Translations under genes and position numbers: made by a program | Part shown: positions 15,607 to 62,147 of the stretch, one piece after another | How positions within the stretch are numbered: the first letter of the stretch is position 1 | Layout: every line of letters starts with the position of its first letter | Origin: Candidatus Zixiibacteriota bacterium | GTDB lineage: Bacteria > Zixibacteria > MSB-5A5 > GN15 > PGXB01 | Direction: 5' to 3' | Assembly (NCBI GenBank): GCA_900498245.1 | Contig: LS998015.1 | Location: 2,430,069-2,494,068, forward strand | Length of the DNA: 64,000 bases | The notes under the pieces: model-generated | Told to the model about the DNA's origin: nothing | The model's input: only the letters and a program-made list of their open reading frames with translations | Databases searched by the model: none

Positions 15607-18600
15607 CTACTTCATCAAGACCATTTTTCTCGTCTGTTCAAAACCGGCGGTTTTGAGACGATAGAAATAGATTCCTGACGCCACCGGCTGGCCATCAAAT
15701 CCGGTGCCGTTCCAGACTACTTGATTCTGGCCGGCCTGAGCCATGCCGTCAAATACCGTCGCCACTTTCTTGCCGAGGATGTTGAAGACCTCAAGCGTGG
15801 CCTGGGCGGCGGAAGGCAGGCTAAAGGAAATTGTCGTCGCCGGATTGAAGGGGTTGGGGTAGTTCTGTCCCAGGGCAAATCCAGTCGGCAGAAGCGGTTC
15901 GCCATTCTTGGCAGTCAGATTGACCAGTTCTTGTCTGGCTCCGTTTTCGGTCCAGGTGATACTTTCGCCAGTCGCCATGCCGTCGACCATAATGGCGAAA
16001 GTTTCGCCTTTGGCCGGCCCTTCTTTTTCTGCCGTGGAAGGATCATCACCATAGACCGGCATAAATCCGAACTTACCGGCCCGCCCGACGGTCGCGGCTC
16101 CGATAACTCGGCCATCGCGACTGACAGCCGTCACTGTGGCGCCCTGAGGAAGAGCCTTGTTGTCAAGTTTCAATTGATAAGAATAGAGATTCATCCAGAC
16201 CTTGGAAAGCGAAATCCGGTTTTCGGAAATCGCCCGATCGGCTTTCGCTAACATCTGCGGGAAGATCACCTTCGGCCCGACTCCCGGATAAATCAGCAAA
16301 TCGCTGTTGCTCACTTTGAGCCAGTAGCCAAATCCCGGACGCATCATCGTCAAAGTCGAATAGGCCGGTAGTTGCGGATCATAGGTCTGAGCGACGCCGT
16401 CAAAGCCAAGTGCCACAATCAAATTCTCCATCACGGAATTGAGAGCAAAAGGCGTGGAATCGGCGACATCGGGCAGATATGAAACCAGGTTCCAACCGGT
16501 TTCCAGATGAATCGGCGTCGTCGCGGCCACCGGCGTGCCGGTGACTTCAAGGACCGTATCGCAATCCATCTTTACCCAATAGCCGTGGAAATGATCGGCG
16601 TTCCAGAGAGTGGAGAAATCGGGCAACGACGGATCATAGGTGAACCCGCCCTGTTCGAATCCCATAATGACTTCGACACAACCGGATATAGATTTGAATA
16701 ATTCCTGTATGTCATCATTTGGAGTATCGACATTCCACGAAATCAGGTTCCAGCCCTGTTTCAGAGCGATAGTTTTGGTCTGAACCGGGAAGATATCAAG
16801 GCAGACCTGGAAACTGGCCCCTTTTTCGGTCCATATCCGCGGCCCATTTGCCGCCGCTGGATACCCATTAATAAAGAAGGAAATGGTATCCCCGGGTTCG
16901 GCCCCGTCCGCCTCAATGGTGTATGGGTCATCTCGGTAGACCGGCATGAAACCGTAGCTTCCGGGCATTGATACGAAATATGTTCCGCAATGAGATCCAT
17001 TAGGAGCATAAGCATCTACGACCGATCCGACAGGCAGAGGAACACCATTATAATAATTATTGTCGCAATAGAAATTGACCCATTCCGGCGTCGGCGTAAC
17101 CGGCGGAACGGGAGTTAAAACAATATCAAAACCAATCTGGCCATATTCGATATTACGCAATATCCCGGGATAATATCCTTCCTTATAGGCGTAGGCATCG
17201 AAAGGATAAATGCCGGACGAGTGGCAGGCAAACTGGCCGTTGATATCGGTTAGATGCGATGACATCAGTGAACCACCGGGGAACTGACTCCAGAGCTCGA
17301 CGGTGGCACCCTCAATTTCATTACCGGCGGTGTCTATGACCCGTCCGCATACATATCCGGAATCAATACCTATTACCACCCCGCCGGGAATGAAGGTCGG
17401 ATTTAGAATACTCGACGAATCGGTGAATTGGACCGTTTTTGATGAATCAATGGACACAAAAGTCGAGATTATGGAATCGGTAACGGTGAAATGCAGTTTC
17501 GCCAATAATCCTCGTCCGGCCGGAATTGCGGGAGTCAGGAAAGGCGACACCAGAATATTGCATTCCCGGAGGTTATTATCAAACGAGCCGACTTTGGTAT
17601 CGACATAGTTGACCCGGGTTCCACCGAACGTTATCGAATCCATTGTTATGAGAGAAGAACTCCATTTGAGGGGCACCAGAATAGAACTGAGCGGCTGCAC
17701 ATTTTTGAAATAGACCGGCACCACTACCGAGTTGCCGGGGATGGCGGGAACCGTAGCCACCCAGGCGGAATCGTCCGTATCCGGACCGGAGGTCACATGA
17801 AGAATAACCGGTACAGCCAGTCTTCTGATTCCAACTTCTCCCATATCTTCCATCACAAATATGGAATCGACATAAATGCCGGGATTGAGACCGCTCGCAT
17901 CGATGGTTACCGGCATGGACACGGGAGTCAGCTGGACATTAGGGTATCCCCAAGGGCATTGCGTTATAAGCCAGGTGCAATTAGACTCTAGATAAAACGG
18001 GGCGGCACACCCGTGGGCTTCCGATATGTTGATAGTATCATACCTGATTTCGCCCTGCATCAAAGTAACATTGAATGAGGCCGGATCGGCAACGTAAGTA
18101 CGTTCGAAGCAAGATGTATCGACCATCAATGAAATGATCGTGGTTCGCGGTGAATTTGCCGCCGAATCGGAATAGACAAAAATCGTATCGAGATGCAATC
18201 CCGGTGTTAAGCCCTCCGCCTTTATCTTCACCGGTATTGATTTGGGCGTAACCAGCGGAGTGACGGCGGCGGTATCGGGTTCGGCGATGATACCCGAAAA
18301 GCCGAGTCGGAACGGTATATTATGCCCCCGCTGCTCGAACACCATGATGCTGGTATCGGGAATCGTATCTCCAGGATGAATATGATATGGAATAAAGTAA
18401 GGTTCCACGGCAATCCGGTTGGGAACCGTATCCGGCAAAACTGTCAACTTGACCTGCGCTACCGCCGGAAATCTCATCAAGGAATCAGGATATCCATAGA
18501 ATGAAATGGTGTCAAAATAGTCGCCCGGAGCCAGGCCCTTTACATCGAAGCGATATAGTAATGATTCCGGCGTGGTAAAGGGGCCAGCCGCGTTGGCCAC

Positions 18601-20463
18601 CAGCCACGATTGAAAATTGCGCGCCATAAATTGAATTGTTTGACCGTGTGATTCACGGACCCACAAACTGCGATAGGCAACCGTATCCGGCGGCGCAACC
18701 GACACATTCAGACTCGACGGCGATACGAGCAAAACCGGAGGCACCGGCACAATCGTGATCTGCACCGGAATTTTCAGCGGCGAGTTCGTCACGTTGGCCG
18801 CCATCACTTCGACCGTATCAATATAGACTCCCGGAGCCAATCCGCCCATGGGGTAAATCCAAATAGTGTCGGGGGTAATAAGCGGCGAAAACTGCATCGT
18901 GTCGATTATCAGCCAATCCGAGGAACTGTGTGTCCAAAATTCGATATTGGCCCCGCCCTGCTCGGTTATTAAAATAGTATCGATATGATTGTCACCCTCG
19001 GTCAGAGTGGTATCAATCATCGCTTTTGACGATACCAGGGTCCCGGCCGCCTCGACATTCAGCACCGTTATGGTTATGGTTTCGCTATCGATATAGAAGC
19101 CGTCATTGGCATAAAAAGTCACATTATAAAGCCCCGCCTGAGAGGTGTCGGGCATGAATTCAAAATGCCCGGTGCCGTCGCCAAAATCGACAAATGTGGC
19201 GTGGGGCGGAAGAAAGGTTGAACCCAGACCCGGCGGGTCCCCATCAGGGTCGGTCGCTGTAACATCAAAGGCGAGAGTAGCACCTTCATTGACAGTTTTA
19301 TTACCAATCGGATTTAAGACCGGCGGACGATCGACGTTGGTGACCGTTATGGTGACCATTTCCGAATCGGCCAGGGTGCCGTCGCTTACAATAAAGAGAA
19401 CTGGATAACTCCCGGCTTGATCATAGTTGGGATTGAAGTCGAATGTCCCGGTATTATTATGATTATCCGCAAAAGTGGCATTGGCCGGAAGAGGCGCGGC
19501 CGTGAAAGAAAGCGGATCGCCGTCGGGATCGGTGCCGGAGACCCCGAAATGAAGGTTGGCGGCTTCCGCGACGGTCTTGGGACCGATTGCGGCCAGCACC
19601 GGCGAACGATCAGTATTGGTTACCGTTATCGTTACCAGTTCGGAATCAGCCAGAGTCCCGTCACTGGCGACAAAAAGGACCTGGTAGCTCCCCGCCTGAG
19701 TATAATCGGGAGAAAAACTGAAAGAGCCGGTTCCGTTATGATTATCCGTGAAGGTTGCATGATTCGGAAGCGGGGCGGCGCTCAGGGTGATGGCATCGCC
19801 ATCAGTATCGCTCGCTGAAACGCCAAAATTCAGGGCAGATGCTTCGCCAACACTTTTGGGTCCGATACTGTTAAGAACCGGCGGCTGGTTAGGTGGCGAA
19901 GTGGAATCTTCCACTGTCCAGCAAGTCTTTGTGAAAGTCGGAACGGGATCATCAAATAGCCAGTCATACGTCGGGTCCGAAGGGGTCCCTTGCTCAATAC
20001 AGAATTGACCTGAAGTGGCGGAAGTTCTGAAGGTCCAGGAGAAATCTCTAATTTCCCCGAGCGCCGGCGGATAACCCTGATTCATAGCCGCTCCGGTCAC
20101 ATTAAATAGATCAGGAAGTACGCCGTCCCAACTTTCCACATATGTGATTCTGAATAAATCCCAGAATCCGGCAAACTGCGTCGTTGTGACATGCGCAAAC
20201 ATCGTGTCGCCCTGATATTGCACCGGCACATTGCCGGTAAAAGCAAAGGGCGTCGACCACGTCGAACGATTGATCGAAAACGGTATTGTATCAGTATTGT
20301 TCGAATAAACGTTAACGGTGAAGTCGGCGTTGGGCTGTATTTTTGTCCCCCCCGCCCATACCCCCGGGCCGGTTATATCGGCGCGGATGGTCATGCCATA
20401 GCCCTCTATCCCAATAGACAAAATAAACAGGGACAGAAGTACCAAAAATACCTTTTGTTTCAT
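15607..20463 (-). CDS. Giant secreted multidomain protein: Ig/cadherin-like, cohesin-like and type A sorting tail
   Basis: 1618 residues. Order seen: signal peptide (1-23); three cadherin/Ig-like repeats of about 93 residues (about 191-471; PPVL...DTDGD...LADSELVTITV); four BACON-like repeats of about 100 residues (471-890, each with LxPGxYxDTIxV); a cohesin-like domain (896-1036; GNSVVVPVYF ... GRGLLAKLHFTV); a carboxypeptidase-regulatory-like domain (about 1040-1110); a GFMPVY module (about 1128-1215); two copies of a GWNLISW ... TYDPSLPDFSTL ... GYWVK unit (about 1228-1395); a diverged GFMPVY module (about 1415-1515); and a sorting tail with YPNPFNP and ASGIYFYRL. It is probably a surface adhesin or scaffold exported by a T9SS-like route. 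Its partner is the 14527 gene downstream. Confidence 0.85.
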   Translation of the reverse strand: MKQKVFLVLLSLFILSIGIEGYGMTIRADITGPGVWAGGTKIQPNADFTVNVYSNNTDTIPFSINRSTWSTPFAFTGNVPVQYQGDTMFAHVTTTQFAGFWDLFRITYVESWDGVLPDLFNVTGAAMNQGYPPALGEIRDFSWTFRTSATSGQFCIEQGTPSDPTYDWLFDDPVPTFTKTCWTVEDSTSPPNQPPVLNSIGPKSVGEASALNFGVSASDTDGDAITLSAAPLPNHATFTDNHNGTGSFSFSPDYTQAGSYQVLFVASDGTLADSELVTITVTNTDRSPVLAAIGPKTVAEAANLHFGVSGTDPDGDPLSFTAAPLPANATFADNHNNTGTFDFNPNYDQAGSYPVLFIVSDGTLADSEMVTITVTNVDRPPVLNPIGNKTVNEGATLAFDVTATDPDGDPPGLGSTFLPPHATFVDFGDGTGHFEFMPDTSQAGLYNVTFYANDGFYIDSETITITVLNVEAAGTLVSSKAMIDTTLTEGDNHIDTILITEQGGANIEFWTHSSSDWLIIDTMQFSPLITPDTIWIYPMGGLAPGVYIDTVEVMAANVTNSPLKIPVQITIVPVPPVLLVSPSSLNVSVAPPDTVAYRSLWVRESHGQTIQFMARNFQSWLVANAAGPFTTPESLLYRFDVKGLAPGDYFDTISFYGYPDSLMRFPAVAQVKLTVLPDTVPNRIAVEPYFIPYHIHPGDTIPDTSIMVFEQRGHNIPFRLGFSGIIAEPDTAAVTPLVTPKSIPVKIKAEGLTPGLHLDTIFVYSDSAANSPRTTIISLMVDTSCFERTYVADPASFNVTLMQGEIRYDTINISEAHGCAAPFYLESNCTWLITQCPWGYPNVQLTPVSMPVTIDASGLNPGIYVDSIFVMEDMGEVGIRRLAVPVILHVTSGPDTDDSAWVATVPAIPGNSVVVPVYFKNVQPLSSILVPLKWSSSLITMDSITFGGTRVNYVDTKVGSFDNNLRECNILVSPFLTPAIPAGRGLLAKLHFTVTDSIISTFVSIDSSKTVQFTDSSSILNPTFIPGGVVIGIDSGYVCGRVIDTAGNEIEGATVELWSQFPGGSLMSSHLTDINGQFACHSSGIYPFDAYAYKEGYYPGILRNIEYGQIGFDIVLTPVPPVTPTPEWVNFYCDNNYYNGVPLPVGSVVDAYAPNGSHCGTYFVSMPGSYGFMPVYRDDPYTIEADGAEPGDTISFFINGYPAAANGPRIWTEKGASFQVCLDIFPVQTKTIALKQGWNLISWNVDTPNDDIQELFKSISGCVEVIMGFEQGGFTYDPSLPDFSTLWNADHFHGYWVKMDCDTVLEVTGTPVAATTPIHLETGWNLVSYLPDVADSTPFALNSVMENLIVALGFDGVAQTYDPQLPAYSTLTMMRPGFGYWLKVSNSDLLIYPGVGPKVIFPQMLAKADRAISENRISLSKVWMNLYSYQLKLDNKALPQGATVTAVSRDGRVIGAATVGRAGKFGFMPVYGDDPSTAEKEGPAKGETFAIMVDGMATGESITWTENGARQELVNLTAKNGEPLLPTGFALGQNYPNPFNPATTISFSLPSAAQATLEVFNILGKKVATVFDGMAQAGQNQVVWNGTGFDGQPVASGIYFYRLKTAGFEQTRKMVLMK

Positions 20464-20788
20464 TTCTTACTCCTGTATTGTTTGGAACATTTAAAACTTG
20501 AACTCTTCATTTTAATACACGGCGGGAATTTTTCTGCAGACCAACAAATTACCATAAGCAGCGCCTTCTTTGCATGATAACGGCCGAAATCAAATACCAC
20601 CCTCAAAAATCCACATACCCCTAGCCGCTAAGAATGTCAGTTAAGCAAACTTAATACCAGGGCATCCTAATAAATAATTCAATCGCAAGTAACTTAAAAG
20701 GCTCAGCAACATAAAAATACGCTATTGTGAAAGTTTGTCAAGTTAAATAGCAGTAAAGGGATACGCAAAATATTGCATAAAATCTGGC
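20464..20788. other. Non-coding stretch upstream of the giant secreted protein
   Basis: A 325-nt gap between the start of the 1618-residue protein and the stop of the VanZ-like gene. No convincing ORF. It contains the minus-strand promoter described at 20714-20741, which would give a 5' leader of about 250 nt. I see no named riboswitch in that leader. Confidence 0.5.
20714..20741 (-). promoter_or_regulatory. Sigma-70-like promoter for the type A-tail protein operon
   Basis: TTGACA (20741-20736) and TATTTT (20719-20714) on the minus strand, 16-nt spacer, directed at the giant secreted protein about 250 nt away. Confidence 0.55.
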
Positions 20789-50398: not shown

Positions 50399-51466
50399 TT
50401 ATCTAATTCCATTTCGGCCACGCTTACTATGCTTTAGCCTGGCAATAAAAATAAGATATAATATAAAAGTTGCAACCATAAAAAGGAGCAAAATGGTCAG
50501 AACCGCAATTCGCTCAAAAACAAACATTGAAATTGCCACGAGACTGAAAAATATCCCCGAAAGGTAAAAAAGGACAATAATTTGACGTTGCTCCAGCCCG
50601 GCACGGGCCAAATAGTGGAAAATATGCCTCCGATCGGCTTTCATAACGTTCTTTCCGGCCGCTATCCTCCGCGTGAAGGAAGACACCGTCTCAATCAAAG
50701 GCACACCCAGCACCAGTAATGGCAGGAACAGCGCCGCCAGCGTATAGGACTTGATCGGGACCACCAGAGATATTACGGCAAAAATATAACCGGTAAACAG
50801 GGCGCCGCAGTCGCCCAGAAAAATCCTGGCCGGATAACGGTTAAAGAGCCAAAATGAAAACATCGTTCCCGCCAGAACCAGAGCAAACAGGGCTACCGCC
50901 GCGATATGAAACATGAATCCTATAATAGTCATGGTCAAGGCCGCGATGAAGGAGACGCCCGGCGCCAAACCGTCAAGTCCATCGATAAGATTAATGGCAT
51001 TTGATAACCCAACAACCCAAAGAACCGTTATTACTACGGCGAAACCACCCAGTTCCACCGAACCGAAAGGCGGAATGGAAAGAACTTGAATCGACAGCCC
51101 TCCAAAATAGAGAATCAATCCGGCGATTATTTCCACCAGGAGTTTCGGCCAGGCCGCCAGCGGCTTAAGGTCGTCGATGATGCCTACCATCAGAATCAAA
51201 AAAGCTCCGGTAAGAATATACCCGAGCGAGTCGCCAAAGTCCTCCAGCGCCACATTGCCTGCGAGGCGTATTATGGCGATGACCGCCCAGAACGAGACAA
51301 ATATCGCTATGCCCCCAAGATTCGGAGTTGGTCTTTTATGACGCTTGTGTTGTCCCGGATAATCATACAGTGACAAACGGGAACTGAATGAAATGACGGT
51401 GAAAGTCATAACTGCGGCTAAAAACGCGGCCCCGAAAAACGAAATTGGATATACCACGGCACTCAC
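50399..51466 (-). CDS. Polyprenyl-phosphate sugar-1-phosphate transferase (WecA/MraY family)
   Basis: 355 residues and about ten or eleven membrane segments. Catalytic-site motifs: [15 protein letters not shown] (about 40-54), [12 protein letters not shown] (Asp-Asp, about 94-105), [15 protein letters not shown] (about 155-169) and [12 protein letters not shown] (about 215-226). The gene context of envelope glycosyltransferases points to a WecA/TagO-like role, attaching GlcNAc-1-P or a related sugar to undecaprenyl phosphate and starting a glycan, rather than MraY. It is followed in the operon by accA. Confidence 0.9.
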
Positions 51467-51470
51467 GGGC

Positions 51471-52355
51471 TTACCTTTTGCCCCTTCCCGATGACCGCCC
51501 GGCGCTTCTAAGCAGACTGACGATCATATTTATCATCAGGGCCGCGGGTAGAAGAAAAAGTGAAAAACCATTGGGATAATATTTAAGGAAATATTTCCAG
51601 ACCGACAAGTGTTGATACCAAGCGCGCCGAAATACGGAAATATCGGCCCCTTTGCCCCATAAATGGACACCGCCTGCTTCCGGGACAAAATATATTTTTC
51701 TTCCTCCTTGTCCGATCCGGACACAGAGGTCGGTATCTTCCATGAACATAAAAAATCTTTCATCAAATCCCCCCAGTTTGATAAAAAACTCTCTCTCCAC
51801 AAGGAGGCAGGTGGCGGCGGCCGCCGGCACCTCGGTTGTCGTTTCATAGTCCCCTAAGGTATAGATTTCCTTTTCCCCGAGACCCGGTTTTCTGCGCCCC
51901 AACCACGAGCCGCGCGAAAAAAATATATTCCTCGGCGTCGGAATATTACGGCAGGTAGCCTGAAATTGCCCGTCAGGGTGTCGCAGCCGCGGACAAACCG
52001 CTCCCGCCAATTTATTATTCTTATATGCATCCACTAAAATTTTGGGACATCCCTCGTCAAGTATCAGATCCGGATTGACCATCAGGAGATATCTCCCTTG
52101 CGCCTGGCGGGCCGCGGCATTATTGGCCGAGGCAAAGCCGATATTATCGGATGACGCGATTATTTTTATTTCCGGGAAACGGTGCCGAATGGAATTGACG
52201 GTAGCATCATGCGAAGCGTTATCATATATGATAATTTCGCCGCCGGTCGATAATATTTCCCTTTCCAGAGACGCCAGACAGGGCGCTATATTCTCCACCG
52301 AATTATGAGTTACCACAATGGCGGAGATCAATAAATTTGAGCCGAAATCGTCCAC
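51471..52355 (-). CDS. Glycosyltransferase family 2 (rhamnosyltransferase-like)
   Basis: 294 residues from a GTG at 52355. A GT-A fold begins SAIVVTHNSVENIAPCLASL, with IIIYDNASHDATV, the donor-binding LLMVNPDLILDEGCPKIL (DxD-like NPD, about 90-107) and GGFDERFFMFMEDTDLCVRI (about 195-214), the ED motif of GT2 rhamnosyl- and related transferases. A hydrophobic C-terminal helix (about 262-282) may anchor it to the membrane. It adds a sugar to the lipid-linked glycan; the substrate is unknown. Confidence 0.9.
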   Translation of the reverse strand: MDDFGSNLLISAIVVTHNSVENIAPCLASLEREILSTGGEIIIYDNASHDATVNSIRHRFPEIKIIASSDNIGFASANNAAARQAQGRYLLMVNPDLILDEGCPKILVDAYKNNKLAGAVCPRLRHPDGQFQATCRNIPTPRNIFFSRGSWLGRRKPGLGEKEIYTLGDYETTTEVPAAAATCLLVEREFFIKLGGFDERFFMFMEDTDLCVRIGQGGRKIYFVPEAGGVHLWGKGADISVFRRAWYQHLSVWKYFLKYYPNGFSLFLLPAALMINMIVSLLRSAGRSSGRGKR

Positions 52356-53084
52356 CTATTTCAATCTGCCAAGAATCGACATGAAGCGCAGGAACCAGAC
52401 TTTCCATATTGCCTCCCGGACTATTTTTTTGGACATTTTTGATGCCCCGAACTGCCGATCGGCAAATATGATCGGAATTTCCTTTATGCGAAACCCCTTT
52501 TTCCAGACCCGCATCGATACCTCAATCTGAAATATATACCCGTTGGATCTTATGGCATTCAGATCGATCGCCTCAAGCACCTCCCGGCGGAAGCATTTGA
52601 AACCGCCGGTCGCATCGCGAACCGGTAGACCGGTCACGATTCGGGTATAGGCGTTGGCATAATATGAAAGCAGGAGCCGCCCCATCGGCCAGTTGACGAC
52701 ATTGACGCCGGATATGTACCGCGAGCCCAGAACCAAATCATTTTCCTCAATCGCCCGCAAGAAATCGGGAAGATATTTGGGATCGTGCGAAAAATCGGCA
52801 TCCATCTCAAATATGTAATCGTACTTCTTATCCATTCCCCATTTAAATCCGGCGATATAGGCGCGGCCAAGCCCTTCCTTTTTCTCCCGGTGTAATGTGT
52901 GAATGCGCGGATCGGCGGCCGCGAGTTTGTCTGCAATTTGGCCGGTGCCGTCGGGCGAATTGTCGTCCACCACCAGCACCTCCAAACGGCTGTCAAGCGG
53001 GAGTACCGCCTTTATAATATTCTCGATATTTTCCTTCTCGTTATAGGTCGGAAAAATTATGAGCCCGCGTTTTTTATCGGTCAT
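52356..53084 (-). CDS. Polyprenol monophosphomannose synthase-like GT2 enzyme
   Basis: 242 residues. It opens GLIIFPTYNEKENIENII, followed by LEVLVVDDNSPDGTGQIADK (about 34-53), the acceptor/donor DxD in IFEMDADFSHDPKYLP (about 90-105), and late GGFKCFRREVLEAIDL and FGASKMSKKIV. This is the soluble Dpm1/Ppm1 type, which makes polyprenyl-phosphate-mannose from GDP-mannose at the cytoplasmic face. It would provide the donor used by GT39 enzymes such as 56506-58656. Its gene overlaps the YfhO-like stop by 4 nt. Confidence 0.92.
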   Translation of the reverse strand: MTDKKRGLIIFPTYNEKENIENIIKAVLPLDSRLEVLVVDDNSPDGTGQIADKLAAADPRIHTLHREKKEGLGRAYIAGFKWGMDKKYDYIFEMDADFSHDPKYLPDFLRAIEENDLVLGSRYISGVNVVNWPMGRLLLSYYANAYTRIVTGLPVRDATGGFKCFRREVLEAIDLNAIRSNGYIFQIEVSMRVWKKGFRIKEIPIIFADRQFGASKMSKKIVREAIWKVWFLRFMSILGRLK

Positions 53085-55531
53085 AGTCGATGAGTGTCCT
53101 TTTTTCGACGCATCAGGGACTGAATTCCATATGTGCTCAGCACCGCCCCCACGATTATAAGTCCGAATAATGTGATCATCAGGCCCCGGTTATTCATTGC
53201 CTTATTATATTTAAAAATCACACGATTCGTTCCCGCCTTTAATGCGACTGCCCGGAAAGCGCCGTCGGCCCGAAGAATCGGCACTTTGGCGCCGCTGGCA
53301 AATGCCTCCCATGCAACATAGTAATTATCCGTGAGCACCAGGATGGTATTGCTCGTCAAGGTCGGAAATTCCACCACTACCGAATCGACCGCATGAGAAG
53401 TTATCTCCGCCGGGGGCAAAAGAGTATCCTGAGCGTTTATATCAAGGGGTGGGGTCTCCTCCAGAAAAACCTTTTTTCTCAGGTCGCTCTGGCCGGATAA
53501 AACCAGGGGATAAATATTCTTGCGTTCAGGAACGACCTCAAATCGATTCACCAGAAAGGCCCGGGGCAGGGCGTTGTCATTCCTGTAAAGCGAAATGGCG
53601 CCGAAATCTTTTTCCACGGTGAGCCGATTTGGTCCGAAATAGCCTACCGTATCCCTCATGCCCGAGCGGCCCAGAATGTAGCGGGCCCCTACCAAGTTGA
53701 GGAAATTGGGATTGCCCAGATTCGTCTTCGCCGGTCCCCCCAAAAGATCATCATACCATCGTAATTGATTTCCATGATATCCGACTACTACTTCGATATC
53801 AAAATAGGGCAGATAGTCATCCGGGACGGCCTGCATATTCATGACCCGGAAATGCCCCGGGAGAGTCTTGATATAATTTGAGATCACGCTCGGCGTAAAC
53901 TGCTGCCGGTAATCATAAGTCTTGATAAATCGCGAATCGAACCGGAAACCGTCGATCATGATCAATAGCGGCAAAATCAGAAAAATATTTCGGCCGACTT
54001 TCCGTGAAAGATAAAGGGCAATGGCTGTCGCTGTCGCGGCGATGAGGAACGAGGCCACCCAGAACCCTGTTTTGATGTTGGGAAGATTCATCAATGCCAC
54101 CTGCCACTTGGTGACATTGCCCTGGCCGATCGGCATGGATTTCAGGCCGCTGTAAAAAATCGAACTGTAAAATGAAAGCATCCCCTCGCCCGCAATAGAA
54201 AATAAAAGGGCGAAAAATATTAAAAGACCGGTCCCCAGGAGCAGATATAGATTCATCCTCTTCTTAATGAGTGCCGACAACTCCCTTCCCTTTTCCGTCA
54301 AAAATTGAATACCGATACCGGCCAGAAGTGCCATCGAGAAGAGAAATAGAAACATTATGGTGCTGGGAGCGCGCAGTGATTTTACATTGGGAATAACATA
54401 GTAAAAAATCTTAAACAGGGGCGTGGTGTCGCCCAGCGCATAGATAAGGGCAAATAGAGCCAGCCCCCCGAAGAAATAAGCCTCCTTCCTTCGCGAGAAC
54501 AGAAGACCGAGTAAGCCGAGGAAAAGAGTGATGACCCCGGCATATTCCGAGTTGTCTTTGAAGAAGTTCTTTCCCCAGTAATGATCATCCCGGCCACTGT
54601 CGACCCCGGCGAATTCCGGTACCACCAGCGAGAAGGCTTCCTCCGGATGCATCGACCACGATGTCGCCCAGTCATATCCGCGTTTGGTATCGGCCCGGGG
54701 GGAGTATTTTGTCGTATATATATATCCGGGATAAAATTGGATCGCGGATATAGCCAGACCGATAATAACCGCTGCAACCAGATATCCCGCCGGTTTGGCC
54801 GTGGCCACCAGGGATCGGCTCTGTCGATAAAGAAATATCAATTTGAACAACCCATACAGCGCAATGGCCCAGAGCGCATAGTAAGATAATTGGGCATGCG
54901 GGCTCAGGATTATAACCCCTATCACCAAGCCTAAGAGCGCGAAATTCAAGATTGGCTTTTTTTCAAACGCCCTTTCCAGAAAGAGCATGGTCAGGGGGAA
55001 CAGGGTGATAACAAAAATTTTGCCATCGTGTCCCGGCGCCACCAGTGAAACCAGCAAGCCGGAAAACATATAGGCGAAACCGGAAACGGTTGAGGCCACG
55101 CGCGACAGTTTAAATTGCCGCGCCGTCAGATACATGAAAATACCGGAAAGGAATATATGAATCACCAGATTCATTCCCAGCATACGGAAGAAATTGCCGG
55201 TAAATTTCAAAATCGACAGCGGATAGAAAATGTCGCCGTGGAAGGCGTCGATAAACGGCATCCCCCCGAAAATGTAAGGATTCCAAAGAGGAATGGAGCC
55301 GTGCAATTTGACATATTCGACATAAAAGTGCCTGAAAAATATGCCGGCGTTGATCATGTCCGAACCGGACAGCATCTGGTCGGAAAAGATAAAATCCCGA
55401 AACAGCAGTATCACCCCGACCAGCATGATCGTGATTACGGCCGGAAAATAATATTTAAAATTTTCCGGATCCCAGCCGGTCTTTCCCGGTCGATTTGAAT
55501 GACCGGCACTTGAATCTTTTTTCTTGACCAA
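53081..55531 (-). CDS. YfhO-like multi-pass membrane protein
   Basis: 816 residues from a TTG at 55531 (GGGAGC upstream). Around 12-14 membrane segments fill the first 530 residues, with the YfhO-family sequence SIPLWNPYIFGGMPFIDAFH (about 78-97) and the acidic SDMINAGIFFRHFY loop. The last 250 residues are a periplasmic beta-rich domain, with one membrane helix at the end. YfhO proteins are GT-C-like and are needed for lipoteichoic acid or exopolysaccharide glycosylation in Gram-positives; here the same type lies within the polyprenyl-sugar operon. Confidence 0.88.
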   Translation of the reverse strand: MVKKKDSSAGHSNRPGKTGWDPENFKYYFPAVITIMLVGVILLFRDFIFSDQMLSGSDMINAGIFFRHFYVEYVKLHGSIPLWNPYIFGGMPFIDAFHGDIFYPLSILKFTGNFFRMLGMNLVIHIFLSGIFMYLTARQFKLSRVASTVSGFAYMFSGLLVSLVAPGHDGKIFVITLFPLTMLFLERAFEKKPILNFALLGLVIGVIILSPHAQLSYYALWAIALYGLFKLIFLYRQSRSLVATAKPAGYLVAAVIIGLAISAIQFYPGYIYTTKYSPRADTKRGYDWATSWSMHPEEAFSLVVPEFAGVDSGRDDHYWGKNFFKDNSEYAGVITLFLGLLGLLFSRRKEAYFFGGLALFALIYALGDTTPLFKIFYYVIPNVKSLRAPSTIMFLFLFSMALLAGIGIQFLTEKGRELSALIKKRMNLYLLLGTGLLIFFALLFSIAGEGMLSFYSSIFYSGLKSMPIGQGNVTKWQVALMNLPNIKTGFWVASFLIAATATAIALYLSRKVGRNIFLILPLLIMIDGFRFDSRFIKTYDYRQQFTPSVISNYIKTLPGHFRVMNMQAVPDDYLPYFDIEVVVGYHGNQLRWYDDLLGGPAKTNLGNPNFLNLVGARYILGRSGMRDTVGYFGPNRLTVEKDFGAISLYRNDNALPRAFLVNRFEVVPERKNIYPLVLSGQSDLRKKVFLEETPPLDINAQDTLLPPAEITSHAVDSVVVEFPTLTSNTILVLTDNYYVAWEAFASGAKVPILRADGAFRAVALKAGTNRVIFKYNKAMNNRGLMITLFGLIIVGAVLSTYGIQSLMRRKKDTHRL

Positions 55532-55580
55532 TTTATTGCTCCCGCATTACCGGTGACAGTTTAAAATGGGCCGACAACGG

Positions 55581-56525
55581 CTAATCTTTGACATGCTCGT
55601 CGATTTTATCCAGTTTCTTGCGCATCGCCGCCAGTTCTTCCCTGACCGCCGCCAGCCCCTCCGCCAGAAAACCAAGGATGAAGAGAGCCAGCCCGACACC
55701 TACTAACAGCATAACCAGATAAAGTAGGGGACGAAATCCTTCATACTGGACAAACCGCAAATATAGGGCTATCAGCCCAACCAGGCCCCCCAGCAGGAGT
55801 GAGACGGAGCCGAAAAGCCCGAAAAATAGAAGCGGCTTTTTCAGCAGTGACAACTGGGCTTTCACCGCCAGCATATCAAGAACCCCTATCGGAATCCTCC
55901 AGATTGAAAATTTCGATTTCCCCCATTTTCGCTCATAGAGCGGTATTTTCACTTCGGCAATGTGATGGCCCTTATCAGCCGCCAATACCACCAGATAGCG
56001 ATGCCAGTCGCGGCGCAAAAAAATGTTCTTCAGCACATCGGCCTTGAAGGCTTTGACAGCGTTGAGGTCATGCACCTTTAGATTGAAAATTTTCCGAGAC
56101 AGATAATTATACACGGTTGACACAAATCTCTTCTTATATTTCCCCTGCTTCCAGCCGGTCACCAGGTCGGCGCCATGAAAAATCGGCTCTACCAGTGTCG
56201 GGATATCCTCGGGCAAATATTGCAGATCGGCCGGATAAAAAACATAAATCTCCCCTTCCGCGGCCGCGAAGCCGGTCTGTAGCGCCTCGGTCAGCCCCAG
56301 ATTGTAGGGATGCCTCCGGTACTTAATAAATGGATAGATCTTTGAGGCCTCTATAATTTTTTCATAGGTTCCGTCACTTGACCCATCATCGATCAGCACC
56401 AATTCGAACCGCAAATTGCTGCGGCCGGTCATTTCCCCGAACAGCCGGCAGAATTCCCCGACATTACCCTCCTCATTGAAGGCCGGGACTATGACCGAAA
56501 TAAGACTATTCTTCATCACTGACAT
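55581..56525 (-). CDS. GT2 glycosyltransferase with two C-terminal membrane helices (GtrB-like)
   Basis: 314 residues. The catalytic domain starts SVIVPAFNEEGNVGEF with LVLIDDGSSDGTYEKI, the DxD-like YPADLQYLPEDIPTLVEPI (about 97-115) and HDLNAVKAFKADVL, the layout of polyprenyl-phosphate glucosyl/mannosyl transferases such as GtrB and Dpm. Two hydrophobic stretches (about 225-250 and 258-285) form the membrane anchor, and the tail is charged and coiled. It probably makes a polyprenyl-phosphate-sugar for the adjacent GT39 protein, whose 3' end is overlapped by 20 nt. Confidence 0.92.
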   Translation of the reverse strand: MSVMKNSLISVIVPAFNEEGNVGEFCRLFGEMTGRSNLRFELVLIDDGSSDGTYEKIIEASKIYPFIKYRRHPYNLGLTEALQTGFAAAEGEIYVFYPADLQYLPEDIPTLVEPIFHGADLVTGWKQGKYKKRFVSTVYNYLSRKIFNLKVHDLNAVKAFKADVLKNIFLRRDWHRYLVVLAADKGHHIAEVKIPLYERKWGKSKFSIWRIPIGVLDMLAVKAQLSLLKKPLLFFGLFGSVSLLLGGLVGLIALYLRFVQYEGFRPLLYLVMLLVGVGLALFILGFLAEGLAAVREELAAMRKKLDKIDEHVKD

Positions 56526-58656
56526 CTTTTAAATTCAAAATATTAGCTATGTCCACATTAAGCCGTTCCGATTCCGGATCGAATCCGCGGGCTTTCTCCA
56601 GTTCCTCTAATCCTTTCACCCTGTATTCGGATTGCCCGGATTCTCGAAACATTCTAATATAGAACGCCCCCAATGCCAAATGCAAGTGGAAATCGGTCGG
56701 CGAAAAGGCGATTGCTTTCTTATAAAAATATTCGGCTTCTTCATACATCTTGAACTCTCCCGCCATCCGGGCCGAAATATAATTGGCGGAAAGATTGTCG
56801 GGATTTTTCAATTGAAATCTCTTCATATAATAGTGACCGGAATCGATTTTATTTTGCACGTAGTTTTGGAGGGCGATTTCATAATAGGACCAGTGATACT
56901 GGTTGGCCTCGAGATTCCCGGTAAGACCGGCCACCCGAAATAACTTCACTTTTCTCCCTCCGACATAATAATGAGCCACGAAACGGGCGCTGTCCATTAT
57001 CTGGGGGTAGTCCTTCCGGGCGGTCTCTTCATTTGACTTATCGACCAGTATATGGGTTATCGGATAGCGCCGGAAAAAAGCGGTATCGACATTGGCCACA
57101 CCGAACATATGAATGAAGTTGAAAAACCTATTTTCCTGGGTGAAATCGGCGGCATACGGCCCGGAAATCACCGCCTCCGGCGAAAGAATCAGCGACAGGT
57201 CCCGGGAATTGGCGACCGTGCAGAAGGTGGCCCGGCCCGACCAATTCAGGTAATTAATGCTTCCCGGGATAAGTATTGCCAGAACTGTCAAGAGCACCAC
57301 TCCGCGCCGAATATTCATCGCTTTAAGGAATCCTTTTATCGGAAGAAATTTCCATCCCACAAGGATTATGCCGGTGGCGACGGCCGCGGCCCCGATAAAT
57401 ATATACGGTTCCGTGCTCAAATAAAAACTGGCTTCCGATGTCTCGGCATACGGCCGAAGCAGTTGATACATTGGTACCATCAGCGCCGCCATCAAGACAA
57501 CCGGGAATAATCTATATGCTTTTGTCTCAATTCCCTTAACTGTCTGGCTGAGAAGACGAGTCATGAATATTCCTGCCAGACTGTAAATAGGATATATCAA
57601 AAGCGTCTGGTACCGAAGCGGCCGGTAATTCCAGATCATAAGGGCCCCATAAGCCCCGCCTATCATCGCAATCAGGAAAACCATCCCCGGATTGATACCA
57701 TATAATTTTTTGCGCCAGTTTTCACGGCGGCCCGCCCGATAGAGAAACAGCACTATCATGCCCCAGGCCAGAAACGCCGCCATCGGCATCCGCCCGAATA
57801 ATTCGCTCTTGAAACCGAAAGTGACATATTTGTAAAGAAAATCGGCGAATGATTCGAACGCCTTGGGGGCGCCGTAGAGACTTATGGCCTGCTCTTCGAC
57901 ATATCCCGTGACCGAGCGCGCCATCGGCAGATAACTGAAATAGAGCCAAAATACTCCCACCACGGCAAAACCCAATATAAATGACAGGTATTTCTTAAGG
58001 AACCCCCTTAAATCCGGTTTGAAGTCATGGAAATATTGATATATAGCGAAGCAGGCGAATGGGAAGAGATAGATAACGCCGATGATTTTGCTGAAGAATA
58101 TCCCTGCCCCCAAAAAGAGCCCCGCTGTCAGGCCCGCGGCATAGTGACGGCTGTAAAGCATGATGACGAATGCCAGAGCGGCAAAAAAATTCATGCTGTT
58201 TTCAAGAAACGACAACCGGCCATAAAATATCTGATTGTAATCAAGGGAAATGAATATCAGGAAGAAAAGCGAAGCGACATTTCCGGCCATTTTACGCACC
58301 GCGAAATAAAATAGGACGATTGTGGAAAATGAGAAGATTAATCCGACCGCATTTCCCTGGGCAAAACCGACCCCGAATAGCTTAAAAACCAGCATCGCCA
58401 GGACGGTGGTAACCGATTTAAGGAAAAATATTAGGCGAAAATCATGCAGAGGGTTAAAGGCCCCGAAAAGAACAAAATTGCGGGCGTATGATGTATACTG
58501 GGCCGGGTCGGTATAGACATCCTGGCTGGTCGTTAATCCCGGCGGCGGGTCGGCCGAGAGATGATTGAGCCGAATCAGAAGGGCGGTCACGATTAATAGC
58601 AGAAAGGCGATTATCTCCAGCCGCCGCGGAATTTCAAACCTTAATTTATCTTCCAA
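56506..58656 (-). CDS. GT39-like membrane glycosyltransferase with C-terminal TPRs
   Basis: 716 residues. About a dozen membrane segments (about 12-490) with a first periplasmic loop containing PPPGLTTSQDVYTDPAQYTS (about 37-56), whose acidic residues match the catalytic position of GT39/ArnT enzymes. A periplasmic domain (about 500-590) is followed by TPR-like helices (about 600-700; AEYFYKKAIAFSPTDFHLHL). The same GT39-TPR plan appears at 2096-4303. It probably transfers a sugar from polyprenyl phosphate to a periplasmic acceptor. It overlaps both neighbours (20 nt and 11 nt), so it is translated as part of this operon. Confidence 0.87.
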   Translation of the reverse strand: MEDKLRFEIPRRLEIIAFLLLIVTALLIRLNHLSADPPPGLTTSQDVYTDPAQYTSYARNFVLFGAFNPLHDFRLIFFLKSVTTVLAMLVFKLFGVGFAQGNAVGLIFSFSTIVLFYFAVRKMAGNVASLFFLIFISLDYNQIFYGRLSFLENSMNFFAALAFVIMLYSRHYAAGLTAGLFLGAGIFFSKIIGVIYLFPFACFAIYQYFHDFKPDLRGFLKKYLSFILGFAVVGVFWLYFSYLPMARSVTGYVEEQAISLYGAPKAFESFADFLYKYVTFGFKSELFGRMPMAAFLAWGMIVLFLYRAGRRENWRKKLYGINPGMVFLIAMIGGAYGALMIWNYRPLRYQTLLIYPIYSLAGIFMTRLLSQTVKGIETKAYRLFPVVLMAALMVPMYQLLRPYAETSEASFYLSTEPYIFIGAAAVATGIILVGWKFLPIKGFLKAMNIRRGVVLLTVLAILIPGSINYLNWSGRATFCTVANSRDLSLILSPEAVISGPYAADFTQENRFFNFIHMFGVANVDTAFFRRYPITHILVDKSNEETARKDYPQIMDSARFVAHYYVGGRKVKLFRVAGLTGNLEANQYHWSYYEIALQNYVQNKIDSGHYYMKRFQLKNPDNLSANYISARMAGEFKMYEEAEYFYKKAIAFSPTDFHLHLALGAFYIRMFRESGQSEYRVKGLEELEKARGFDPESERLNVDIANILNLKDVSDEE

Positions 58657-59749
58657 AGAATTCCCTTATTTTCGATGCCACATATTCTATCTGATCGTCG
58701 GGCAATTCCGGATAGATCGGCAGAGACAAAATCTGATCGGCCAATCGCTCCGTGACAGGGAAATGACCCGGCTTAAAGCCGGCTTTCAAATAGGCTTGCT
58801 GTTTATGAATAGGTATCGGGTAATGTATGAGTGTCGGGACGCCGGATTCCGCCAAAAATTGCTGCAGGGCATCCCGGCGCTCGGTTTCTATGACAAAAAG
58901 GTGATAGACTTGATAATAATCCGCTGTTTCCGATGGGACCACGATCGGGATCCCTTTCAGAATCTCGCGATATTTGGTCGCCACCCGATTCCGTTCTCTG
59001 TTCCATTTTTCGAGATATTTTAGTTTAACCCCCAGAACCGCCCCTTGAATCCCCTCCATCCGGGCATTGTAGCCGATAATATCATGAAAGTATTTCTTCT
59101 CCGACCCGTGATCCCTCAGCATCCGGATTTTGCGGGCCAATTCTTTTTCGGATGTTACCACCGCTCCCCCCTCGCCATAGGCCCCCAGATTTTTGCCCGG
59201 ATAGAAAGAGAATGCGCCGGCTGTTCCATATGAGCCGGCCGGTTTCCCTTTAAATGTCGCCCCATGGGCCTGACAGGCATCTTCAAGAACAGCCAGGCTA
59301 TGCTTTCGGGCAATTTCGTCTATCCTCTCCATATCAACCATCCGGCCGAATAAATGAACCGGAATAATGACTTTGGTTTTGGCGGTCACGGCTTTTTCAA
59401 CAAGGTTTAAATCAATATTCCTGGTTTCGGGATCAACATCGACCAGAATCGGAGTGGCTCCGGTATATATAATCGCGGCCGCAGTCGCAATAAAAGTATT
59501 GGCCGCAGTTATAACTTCGTCGCCGGGTCCGATCTCAAGGGCTTTGAGGGTCAGGAATAAAGCCGACGTTCCCGAATTGACCGCGATGGCCTCTCCGCAA
59601 CCGCAGAATCGGGCAAAATCCTCTTCAAATTTGGCCACCGACGGCCCCAGGACAAAAGACGATGTCCCTATCACGCGGCCGATGGCGTCATCGATCTCCG
59701 GTTTGATAGAGATATATTGGCTTCTTAAATCTAGAAAATTAATCTTCAT
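58646..59749 (-). CDS. DegT/DnrJ/EryC1/StrS-family sugar aminotransferase
   Basis: 367 residues. The PLP-binding motif FSFYPGKNLGAYGEGGA places the catalytic Lys at about residue 185; AVNSGTSALFLTLKAL (about 57-72) and LEDACQAHGA (about 154-163) bind the cofactor ring and phosphate. The start NFLDLRSQYISIKPEID is like FdtB/QdtB/WlaRG enzymes that aminate 3- or 4-keto-6-deoxy-dTDP- or UDP-sugars. It would make an amino sugar nucleotide for the glycan built by this operon and is its first gene behind the promoter at 59777-59805. Confidence 0.92.
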   Translation of the reverse strand: MKINFLDLRSQYISIKPEIDDAIGRVIGTSSFVLGPSVAKFEEDFARFCGCGEAIAVNSGTSALFLTLKALEIGPGDEVITAANTFIATAAAIIYTGATPILVDVDPETRNIDLNLVEKAVTAKTKVIIPVHLFGRMVDMERIDEIARKHSLAVLEDACQAHGATFKGKPAGSYGTAGAFSFYPGKNLGAYGEGGAVVTSEKELARKIRMLRDHGSEKKYFHDIIGYNARMEGIQGAVLGVKLKYLEKWNRERNRVATKYREILKGIPIVVPSETADYYQVYHLFVIETERRDALQQFLAESGVPTLIHYPIPIHKQQAYLKAGFKPGHFPVTERLADQILSLPIYPELPDDQIEYVASKIREFFGR

Positions 59750-59776
59750 AAATACCCATTCCAGTTAATCTTCTGC

Positions 59777-59805
59777 AAAATAAGCAAACGAAATTCTTAA
59801 GTCAA
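59777..59805 (-). promoter_or_regulatory. Sigma-70-like promoter of the glycan operon
   Basis: TTGACT (59805-59800) and TATTTT (59782-59777) on the minus strand, exact 17-nt spacer, about 30 nt before the DegT-family start. Confidence 0.6.
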
Positions 59806-60274
59806 GAATGAGCCCCGCGGATCTTCCCACCTCTAAGACGCTGTCCAGAATGCCTTCCGAAAAAAAATAATGGATTAATTTAGTATTTTTTTCAATTAAA
59901 ATATTACTTTATCGTATATATTTTTGAAAGTTTCCTTAGGCGGGAATTTTTAAGACGATTCATTCTTTCATACCTCAGGGGAAGGCCTCTTGCACGAGCG
60001 GGGGGCCTTTGTTATGCCCGCCAGTGGTGTCACGACGAATTAAGGCGGTTAGATGCGGGGTTACTCGGGAATTTGAAAAGATTTGAAATTTTTATGCAAA
60101 TCTATGCACAGAAACAACATCGCCATATTTGTATGTTATTATCATTCAAATGGTTACGCTACAAAGAAGGTGTGGCACGGACTTTGCTCGCTGAGGATTG
60201 TTTAATACCTATTTTTTGAAAGTGCAGAATTCTAAGGAGTTGAAATAATAACACTTAATCAATCAGGAGGTTTT
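59806..60274. other. Non-coding divergent region before the DNRLRE lipoprotein
   Basis: The gap between the two start codons is 525 nt (59750-60274) and AT-rich. It holds the leftward promoter at its left end, a GC-rich hairpin at about 59984-60012 (AAGGCC ... GGCCTT with an inner CTC/GAG pair) and the sigma-54 box at 60173-60188. I see no ORF. Sequence between the hairpin and the sigma-54 box could hold activator-binding sites, but I can name none. Confidence 0.5.
60173..60188 (+). promoter_or_regulatory. Perfect sigma-54 (RpoN) -24/-12 promoter
   Basis: TGGCACGGACTTTGCT matches the consensus TGGCACR-N4-TTGCW at every fixed base, with GG and GC at the correct spacing. It points to the lipoprotein gene starting 86 nt downstream. 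Transcription would need RpoN and an enhancer-binding ATPase. Confidence 0.8.
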
Positions 60275-61360
60275 ATGGCACGTCTGACGAAAATTATGGC
60301 CATCTTTGCGGTTTTGGCTATAATCGTAGTAGGTTGCCAGAATCAGCCGAACAGCACGCTTTCTCCGACTTCTTCTGCAGTCCCCAATATGGCCCCTAAG
60401 TTCATTCTTCCGGCGGGCGCGACTCTCGATTCGGCCATATTTTACATCTTTGTCCAGACTCCCACCAATCAGCCGGTCTATCTTTATCGCGTGACCCAGG
60501 ATTGGGCCGAAATGACCGTCACGTGGAACAATTTCGGCAGCAGCATTGCCCCCGGCGCGTATGGATCATTCATGGCTGACGCTCAAACCTGGCGTTCCGT
60601 GGATATCACAGCTCTGGCCGCGGAATGGTTTAATGGCACCTATCCGAATTACGGTTTCCTGTTGAAACAGCTTGATGAGCAATACCCGCGGACCGTCTAT
60701 CGCAGCCGCGAAAATGTCGCCCTTCAGCCCTATCTGAAGGTCTGCTACACTCTCGATGGCGGCGAAGTTTGCACTCAGGAACTTCCGATTGCCGATGCTG
60801 AAATCAATCAGCTCTATCCGAATGATAACTTCGGCTCGCTCATTCTCCTCTATACCGGATGGAATTCTCCGACTTCACTGGAGAAGCAGACTCTGGTGAA
60901 ATTCGATTTTGAAGCCACCCCTCCTCCCCCTCCTCCGGATCTTGGCTGCACCTTAACCATCGGCTTCTGGAAAAACCATGCCGGCTTCGGCAAGCAGGCC
61001 AATATGGTTTCCCCGCTTCTTCCGATCTGGCTCGGTACTTCCGGCGGTCCCAAGAGCATCAATGTAACGACCAATCTGATCGCCTACAATATTCTTTCTC
61101 AGAATGTCTATGGAACTGCTTCCAACGGCATTACCAAATTGTATGCTCAGTTACTGGGCGCCAAGTTGAATCTGGCCAGCGGCGCTTCCGATGAACCTAT
61201 CCATACTCTCATCATGGACGCCGATGCCTTCTTGGCGAATTATAATTATCTCGACTGGACCACCCTGACCCCGACACAGCAGCAGCAGGTGCTGGATTGG
61301 CAGGGAACCCTTGATAATTATAACAACGGTTTGGAGGGTGTTCCGCATTGCTCCGACTGA
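60275..61360 (+). CDS. Lipoprotein with DNRLRE-like repeats and a C-terminal GFWKNH-type domain
   Basis: 361 residues, start supported by AGGAGG. Lipoprotein signal with VVGC (Cys about 21). Residues about 40-145 resemble a DNRLRE domain (LDSAIFYIFVQTP, YRVTQDWAEMTVTWNNF, SVDITALAAEWFNG, YPNYGFLLK), and a truncated second copy follows at about 165-212 (IADAEINQLYPNDNFGS, LVKFDF). A proline linker (about 214-219) leads to a C-terminal domain that opens CTLTIGFWKNHAGFG, a motif of secreted Gram-negative proteins with no role I know. It is monocistronic, with a sigma-54 promoter and a terminator, so it is expressed under a special condition. Confidence 0.82.
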   Translation: MARLTKIMAIFAVLAIIVVGCQNQPNSTLSPTSSAVPNMAPKFILPAGATLDSAIFYIFVQTPTNQPVYLYRVTQDWAEMTVTWNNFGSSIAPGAYGSFMADAQTWRSVDITALAAEWFNGTYPNYGFLLKQLDEQYPRTVYRSRENVALQPYLKVCYTLDGGEVCTQELPIADAEINQLYPNDNFGSLILLYTGWNSPTSLEKQTLVKFDFEATPPPPPPDLGCTLTIGFWKNHAGFGKQANMVSPLLPIWLGTSGGPKSINVTTNLIAYNILSQNVYGTASNGITKLYAQLLGAKLNLASGASDEPIHTLIMDADAFLANYNYLDWTTLTPTQQQQVLDWQGTLDNYNNGLEGVPHCSD

Positions 61361-61387
61361 TGTCCGACATCATAGGACATAATATTT

Positions 61388-61420
61388 ATGCCCGCAGGTT
61401 TCAGCCTGCGGGCATTTTTA
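61388..61420 (+). terminator. Rho-independent terminator after the DNRLRE lipoprotein
   Basis: Arms ATGCCCGCAGG and CCTGCGGGCAT with a 6-nt loop, followed by TTTTTA. Confidence 0.9.
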
Positions 61421-61456
61421 TTTGAAGAAATTTCAGGAACTCAAATTGTCGGACAA

Positions 61457-62047
61457 TTATCCGCGCCGCTTCCGCTTCTGTACTTCCTTATGCCGGAAAC
61501 AATCCACGACATGATCATTCACCATCCCCGCCGCCTGCATGAAAGCATAACATATGGTCGGACCGACAAAAGAAAAACCCCGTTTTTTGAGATCTTTGCT
61601 CATCGCGATAGATTCCTCCGTAATCGCCGGAATGCCCTTAATGGTTTCGAAGCGGTTGATTATCGGTTTGCCGCCCACAAAGGACCAGATATAACGGTCG
61701 AATGTGCCAAATTCCTTTTTTACTTTAAGAAAAGCCCGGGCATTTGTCACAATTGACTCAATCTTCTTTCTGTTCCGGATAATTCCTTCATTTATCAGCA
61801 ATTTTTCCATCCGGCGCTTATCATAGCGGGCAATTTTGACGGCATCGAAATTATCCAGCGCGGCCCTATAGTTCTCGCGTCTCTGCAATATCGACGCCCA
61901 CGTCAGCCCGGCCTGCATTCCGTCAAGAATCAGAAATTCAAACAATTTGCGATCATCATGAAGCGGCGTGCCCCACTCGGTGTCATGATATTTTATCATG
62001 AGCGGACTTCCCGGCCAGGGACAGCGCGTCTTAACTTTGCCTGTCAT
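61457..62047 (-). CDS. tag: DNA-3-methyladenine glycosylase I
   Basis: 196 residues from ATG 62047 (MTGKVKTRCPWPG); the frame extends 20 codons further but without family sequence. Tag motifs: CPWPGSPLMIKYHDTEWGTP (about 9-28), DGMQAGLTWASILQRRENYR (about 45-64), GIIRNRKKIES (about 90-100), and the zinc-binding end VVDCFRHKE with Cys and His. It removes 3-methyladenine from alkylated DNA. It faces the upstream lipoprotein gene tail-to-tail and is not obviously linked to other genes. Confidence 0.95.
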   Translation of the reverse strand: MTGKVKTRCPWPGSPLMIKYHDTEWGTPLHDDRKLFEFLILDGMQAGLTWASILQRRENYRAALDNFDAVKIARYDKRRMEKLLINEGIIRNRKKIESIVTNARAFLKVKKEFGTFDRYIWSFVGGKPIINRFETIKGIPAITEESIAMSKDLKKRGFSFVGPTICYAFMQAAGMVNDHVVDCFRHKEVQKRKRRG

Positions 62048-62147
62048 CGCTATCAAGTCTTCTATTATTTCGGTTATTTCAGGAAATGATAGGCATATCA
62101 AGGGCATTAATCAATATAATTACCTCTATTTCCGGCCCGAATATGAT

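Follow-up and report, generated by a model that had tools for sequence, protein, structure and literature searches.

A predicted sigma-54 control element shared by a surface lipoprotein gene and PEP-CTERM genes in Zixibacteria

Introduction

What switches on a solitary lipoprotein gene that lies behind a sigma-54-type box, and which other genes answer to the same switch? The question is raised by a locus near one end of a 64,000-nucleotide stretch of Zixibacteria DNA, which was analyzed as a whole and is called here the window; plain coordinates refer to it. The original prediction, made from the letters of the window, was that a perfect sigma-54 box lies 86 nt ahead of a well-supported start, that it has no equal in the window, that it drives a lone gene ending in a strong terminator, and that the lipoprotein is therefore controlled through an activator ATPase. 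We followed the box, its upstream region, and the regulators that could act on it through the genome and its relatives.

The lipoprotein gene and its surroundings

The gene and its immediate context comprise the following features.

58646–59749, minus strand: DegT/DnrJ aminotransferase gene, divergent, at the edge of a glycosyltransferase cluster (50399–59749); context, outside the transcript
60265–60270, plus strand: ribosome-binding site AGGAGG, by direct reading
60275–61360, plus strand: lipoprotein gene, 361 aa, with lipobox VVGC (Cys21), DNRLRE/CBM96 domain (aa 42–156), proline linker, and C-terminal GFWKNH domain (aa 222–361)
60398–60742, plus strand: DNRLRE/CBM96 carbohydrate-binding-module-like domain (PF24517, E = 2.7e-17; NF033679, E = 1.5e-29)
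60938–61357, plus strand: GFWKNH domain, common to the lipoprotein and to Krumholzibacteria surface proteins
61388–61415, plus strand: intrinsic terminator with a 12-bp stem, 8 GC pairs, and a T-rich tail

The position of AGGAGG supports ATG 60275 as the start codon. The product begins with a lipoprotein signal peptide whose lipobox, MARLTKIMAIFAVLAIIVVGC, has an invariant G20-C21 pair among 13 orthologs, and it ends in HCSD, with no match to TIGR02595, i.e., without a PEP-CTERM tail. The DNRLRE/CBM96 domain exceeds the curated cut-offs (63.5 bits against 26 for PF24517, 103.2 against 34 for NF033679), and family membership suggests that the lipoprotein binds carbohydrate. Pfam and NCBIfam hold no name for the 140-aa C-terminal GFWKNH domain, and many relatives of the lipoprotein additionally carry an SdrD_B domain. 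A structure model of the protein (pLDDT 76.5) gave only weak Foldseek matches, to TGF-beta-family propeptides, from which no function was deduced; for the DNRLRE/CBM96 domain, the top Foldseek matches were pro-BMP9 and pro-TGF-beta (E 4.6e-4, low TM-score), and Pfam likewise gave a weak match to these propeptides (E 0.082).

Flanked by the divergent aminotransferase gene and by a convergent 3-methyladenine glycosylase gene (61457–62107, minus strand), the lipoprotein gene reads as monocistronic. Matching neighbors occur in G007 (L205), where a DegT gene, a large membrane protein gene, and a GT2-like gene lie upstream of the ortholog, and the ortholog in G006 lies ~4.5 kb from exosortase/EpsI, near a UDP-GlcNAc 2-epimerase gene.

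The sigma-54 box in the window and the genome

60173–60188, plus strand: sigma-54 -24/-12 promoter TGGCACGGACTTTGCT, with a predicted transcription start near 60199

The box carries exact GG and GC dinucleotides at the correct spacing within TGGCAC-N5-TTGCW and is separated from ATG 60275 by 86 nt (60189–60274). Exact matches to TGGCACGNNNNTTGCW number one in the window and one in the 3,508,505-bp genome, both being TGGCACGGACTTTGCT itself. When up to two mismatches are allowed, the number in the window rises to eight, where 7.1 are expected, and the seven additional matches thus count as background. Thus, the elementary claims of the original prediction are borne out: the exact box and its distance from the start, the lone gene with its strong terminator, and the lack of a comparable box elsewhere in the window.

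A perfect match is nevertheless weak evidence when taken by itself, because we estimate that about 0.8–1 exact boxes (11.5 specified positions, both strands) would be expected by chance in a genome of this size (3.5 Mb), and sites with one mismatch are no commoner genome-wide than in the reversed control (18 in each). We therefore rejected consensus quality alone as proof of a sigma-54 promoter. These same numbers favor an alternative, namely that the box matches the consensus by chance and that the gene is transcribed from a standard sigma-70-type promoter. Against this stands, first, that the sole sigma-70-like match on the plus strand lies within the lipoprotein gene, at 60297; conservation of the promoter region, described below, weighs against it further.

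Conservation of the promoter in orthologs

Orthologs of the lipoprotein occur in Zixibacteria, and where public relatives have named records, these are Zixibacteria. Sense-strand boxes precede these orthologs down to 41–48% protein identity. For instance, the 41%-identical ortholog L044 has a perfect box, TGGCACGGGCTTTGCT, 167 nt upstream, and weaker boxes lie upstream of the orthologs in G014, G006, G003, G002, and L040. By a matrix set by hand from the literature, a box at p < 0.05 is present on the sense strand in 13 of 34 orthologs and on the opposite strand in 3 of 34, with combined p values of 2e-11 and 0.008, respectively. This strand bias argues against a chance match. In a same-genus genome, the box and the putative enhancer discussed in the next section stand out as conserved islands amid a diverged spacer. 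Box, enhancer, or both are absent in some orthologs (G004, G013, and several outside the family), and the G007 ortholog keeps the enhancer with a degenerate box.

It had also been suggested that DNRLRE/GFWKNH proteins may recur as sigma-54 targets. They do so across species; within the genome there is a single copy, and that part of the suggestion fell away.

The upstream region contains a further conserved block, GGGAATTTTTAAGACGATTCATTCTTTCATACCTCAGGG, which together with a GC-rich hairpin (~59945–60012) is near-identical in the same-genus genome while its surroundings have diverged. It may be a small RNA or a promoter element; an Rfam search of 59700–61500 found nothing near gathering scores.

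An upstream TGCA-N6-TGCA element shared with PEP-CTERM genes

60095–60108, strand not assigned: putative enhancer (upstream activating sequence, UAS) TGCAAATCTATGCA, TGCA-N6-TGCA, 64 nt ahead of the box

Inspection of 59806–60172 for enhancer sites, suggested by the original prediction, yielded this site, and TGCA-N6-TGCA occurs within 400 nt upstream in 8 of 13 orthologs. We then searched 15 family genomes for a composite pattern, TGCA-N6-TGCA followed by a spacer and GGMA-N7-TGCW, with reversed patterns as controls. Spacers of 52–82 nt gave four matches, and spacers of 83–113 nt gave 18 matches in 12 genomes; the controls gave none in either range. Five of these 22 composites precede lipoprotein orthologs (in the own genome, G014, G006, G002, and G003), 13 precede PEP-CTERM genes, one precedes a gene for a type-IX-sorted protein (L122, with a type IX secretion, or Por, tail), and three lie elsewhere, with no convincing target (L126, a 45-aa ORF; L128, inside a TPR-like coding sequence; and L131). 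The PEP-TM-basic tail is complete in 12 of the 13 PEP-CTERM targets, and the ten of these that were tested all score above the TIGR02595 cut-off; the thirteenth, L119, runs off its contig and resembles its neighbors L124/L125. The own genome has one PEP-CTERM composite target (L132), near C1:32.5 kb. The original prediction overlooked this control element common to the lipoprotein gene and PEP-CTERM genes.

The core letters of the UAS were derived from lipoprotein orthologs; only its association with PEP-CTERM genes and that with the activator, described below, are therefore independent of how the pattern was obtained. The converse comparison used UAS and box matrices trained on 15 non-lipoprotein composite promoters, with the window site excluded; their consensus has GGCA in the -24 region and TTGCT in the -12 region. 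With these matrices, only one site in 0.99 Mb of own-genome strands outranks the window site, which scores 31.6 against a shuffle maximum of 22.3; the higher-ranking site is the PEP-CTERM training site. A UAS paired with the box at a fixed distance, in composites numbering 22 against none in the controls, adds to the strand bias, and we consider it very improbable that the box arose by chance and the gene is sigma-70-dependent. Gaps between UAS and box cluster near 64, 85, and 94 nt, a distribution compatible with helical phasing that is suggestive only (Rayleigh p 0.007–0.03, with related sites being non-independent).

Two further arrangements were observed. Three PEP-CTERM genes lie in a row at L120 (G005:C315), at least two of them with UAS and box, and one such pair (CGCAATCTATTGCA, CGGAATTATAATTGCT) was missed by the strict pattern. 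In the window itself, a gene on the minus strand (15607–20463) encodes an Ig/cadherin surface protein of 1618 aa that carries a type IX (Por) secretion tail; its upstream region (20644–20777) contains a UAS-like site, TGCAATATTTTGCG (20764–20777), and a weaker box, TGGTATTAAGTTTGCT, with a composite score of 19.7, within the shuffle range. This gene may be another member of the regulon within the window.

Sigma-54 machinery and the candidate activator

The prediction of sigma-54 control through an activator presupposes rpoN, and the genome encodes an intact RpoN (L001, 485 aa), with AID, core-binding, and DNA-binding Pfam domains and the RpoN box ARRTVTKYRE. It also encodes 20 activator ATPases with a strong sigma-54 interaction domain, as well as exosortase and EpsI. 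Together with the enhancer-like site and the conservation of the box on the sense strand of orthologs, the presence of RpoN and the activators supports the predicted mode of control.

With the UAS matrix, we scanned ~0.49 Mb of the own genome, namely the regions surrounding every activator gene, the exosortase, and the window. There were eleven matches above 15, with one site counted twice in overlapping stretches. A doubled UAS lies directly upstream of one activator gene, G000:C1:1175441-1176871, and another copy lies just downstream. The gene encodes a 476-aa protein with receiver, AAA+, and Fis-type HTH domains, in which GAFTGA is present, and is preceded by two genes for GAF histidine kinases. 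Orthologs in ten other family genomes are 77–92% identical over the aligned part. All of them have UAS copies 70–100 nt upstream of the start (two or three in most), the spacing between half-sites being 10 bp, and mostly one copy ~60 nt past the stop. At the ten activator loci with both flanks readable, 28 UAS matches fall in 2.8 kb of flank, where shuffles predict 0.06, against one in 157 kb elsewhere. The same ten loci have a sigma-54 box ~214–225 nt past the activator stop, mostly GGAAT or GGAAC followed at the proper spacing by TTGCT, ahead of a conserved GGDEF-like gene. This small gene always adjoins the activator (L179:11161-11616; L207–L218), and a link to c-di-GMP-type signaling is possible. 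In G011 (L213) and G004 (L215), the activator and its UAS copies are kept and exosortase is absent or only weak; control of PEP-CTERM genes is therefore not the sole role of the activator, which must have other targets.

The gene could have a sigma-54 promoter and still answer to a different protein among the 20, the UAS at the named regulator being the site of a cross-regulating protein. The abundance of NtrC-type activators lends this some weight, as does the scope of the survey, in which 16 of the 20 were typed by NCBIfam and the UAS scan covered ~0.49 Mb of the genome. However, only one activator neighborhood has strong UAS copies, which the ten other genomes have conserved around the orthologous gene, so we regard another activator as unlikely. 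Two specific candidates were rejected: the flagellar-cluster activator L048, which lies beside two PEP-CTERM genes (L177), has no UAS match nearby, and neither gene has a composite; L050, which has the best TIGR02915 score, likewise has no UAS nearby. No activator was found near the exosortase in the loci examined.

Proposed mechanism and regulon

The best explanation, which we hold with good confidence on the strength of these sequence patterns, is that the lipoprotein gene is transcribed by RpoN-RNA polymerase through a UAS-bound activator, by the same switch as PEP-CTERM genes. The polymerase would bind the -24/-12 box at 60173–60188 and stay closed until an NtrC-type response regulator seated at 60095–60108 loops over and hydrolyzes ATP. 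Among the activators, the 476-aa receiver/AAA+/Fis-HTH protein is the likeliest to act here, and its own UAS copies probably allow it to regulate itself; phosphorylation by a neighboring kinase would trigger the ATP-dependent opening at the box. The same switch would drive the exosortase-sorted PEP-CTERM proteins and the GGDEF-like protein beside the activator.

Most likely, the lipoprotein is one member of a sigma-54 regulon for extracellular-matrix and surface proteins. With somewhat less assurance, we propose that this is a previously undescribed Zixibacteria regulon. At its center would be the NtrC-type activator, probably autoregulated, whose gene is flanked by TGCA-N6-TGCA and has neighbors encoding GAF histidine kinases and, under sigma-54 control, a GGDEF-like protein; it would coordinate the carbohydrate-binding lipoprotein, a type-IX-sorted protein, and the PEP-CTERM proteins.

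Comparison with known systems

The closest known arrangement is the PEP-CTERM element of Haft et al. (2006), which consists of an activator motif, a spacer averaging 62.8 nt, and a sigma-54 motif; its targets form single-gene units, have long upstream regions, and are linked to exosortase and EPS genes (PMC1569441). The authors found it in Proteobacteria only and stated that regulators elsewhere had yet to be discovered (PMC1569441). The lipoprotein gene might be an ordinary target of this proteobacterial PrsK/PrsR system, with which it shares the order of activator site, spacer (~63 nt there, 64 here), and sigma-54 site, the single-gene unit, and the link to exosortase and EPS genes. The components differ, however. 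None of the 15 family genomes has the PrsK histidine kinase (TIGR02916) above cut-off, and none of the 16 typed activators, out of 20 in the own genome, passes the PrsR model (TIGR02915, cut-off 502.6), the best scoring 446.2 and the named activator 402.0. Motif 1 of Haft et al. is 17 nt long with a TTTACA end (PMC1569441), whereas the UAS here is TGCAAATCTATGCACA, TGCA-N6-TGCA, and lacks that end. On these three grounds (TIGR02915, TIGR02916, and motif 1) membership was rejected, and we consider it extremely improbable. In addition, spacers cluster near 64, 85, and 94 nt, the product in the window is a lipoprotein with no PEP-CTERM tail, and the phylum and regulator families are different. 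Thus, by the criteria applied to these sequences, the Zixibacteria element resembles PrsK/PrsR in layout and is not a member of that system.

A functional precedent comes from Aquincola tertiaricarbonis, where pepA is RpoN1-dependent, with a sigma-54 promoter (TGGCAC / CTGCTT) mapped by primer extension (PMC9850573). PepA, which is sorted by exosortase, keeps exopolysaccharide attached to cells, and its overexpression moved exopolysaccharide from the soluble to the bound fraction (PMC9850573). The sigma-54 promoter is common to both cases, whereas the phylum, product, and regulator differ, and experiment there contrasts with prediction here. By this precedent, the outer-membrane-type lipoprotein probably helps to keep extracellular polysaccharide or matrix attached to the cell. 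A general link of sigma-54 promoters to exopolysaccharide and lipoprotein genes was described by Francke et al. in 2011, whose abstract and outline name no such element or regulon (PMC3162934). Searching the available literature for Zixibacteria together with PEP-CTERM turned up nothing.

The proposed regulon allows control of the Zixibacteria matrix to be tested directly on a single protein and a single DNA site. It adds to the proteobacterial element a second, differently built one, found by sequence together with its probable activator in an uncultured phylum, and extends the targets to a surface lipoprotein outside the PEP-CTERM class. If true, the Zixibacteria regulon would be the equivalent of PrsK/PrsR, assembled from other components.
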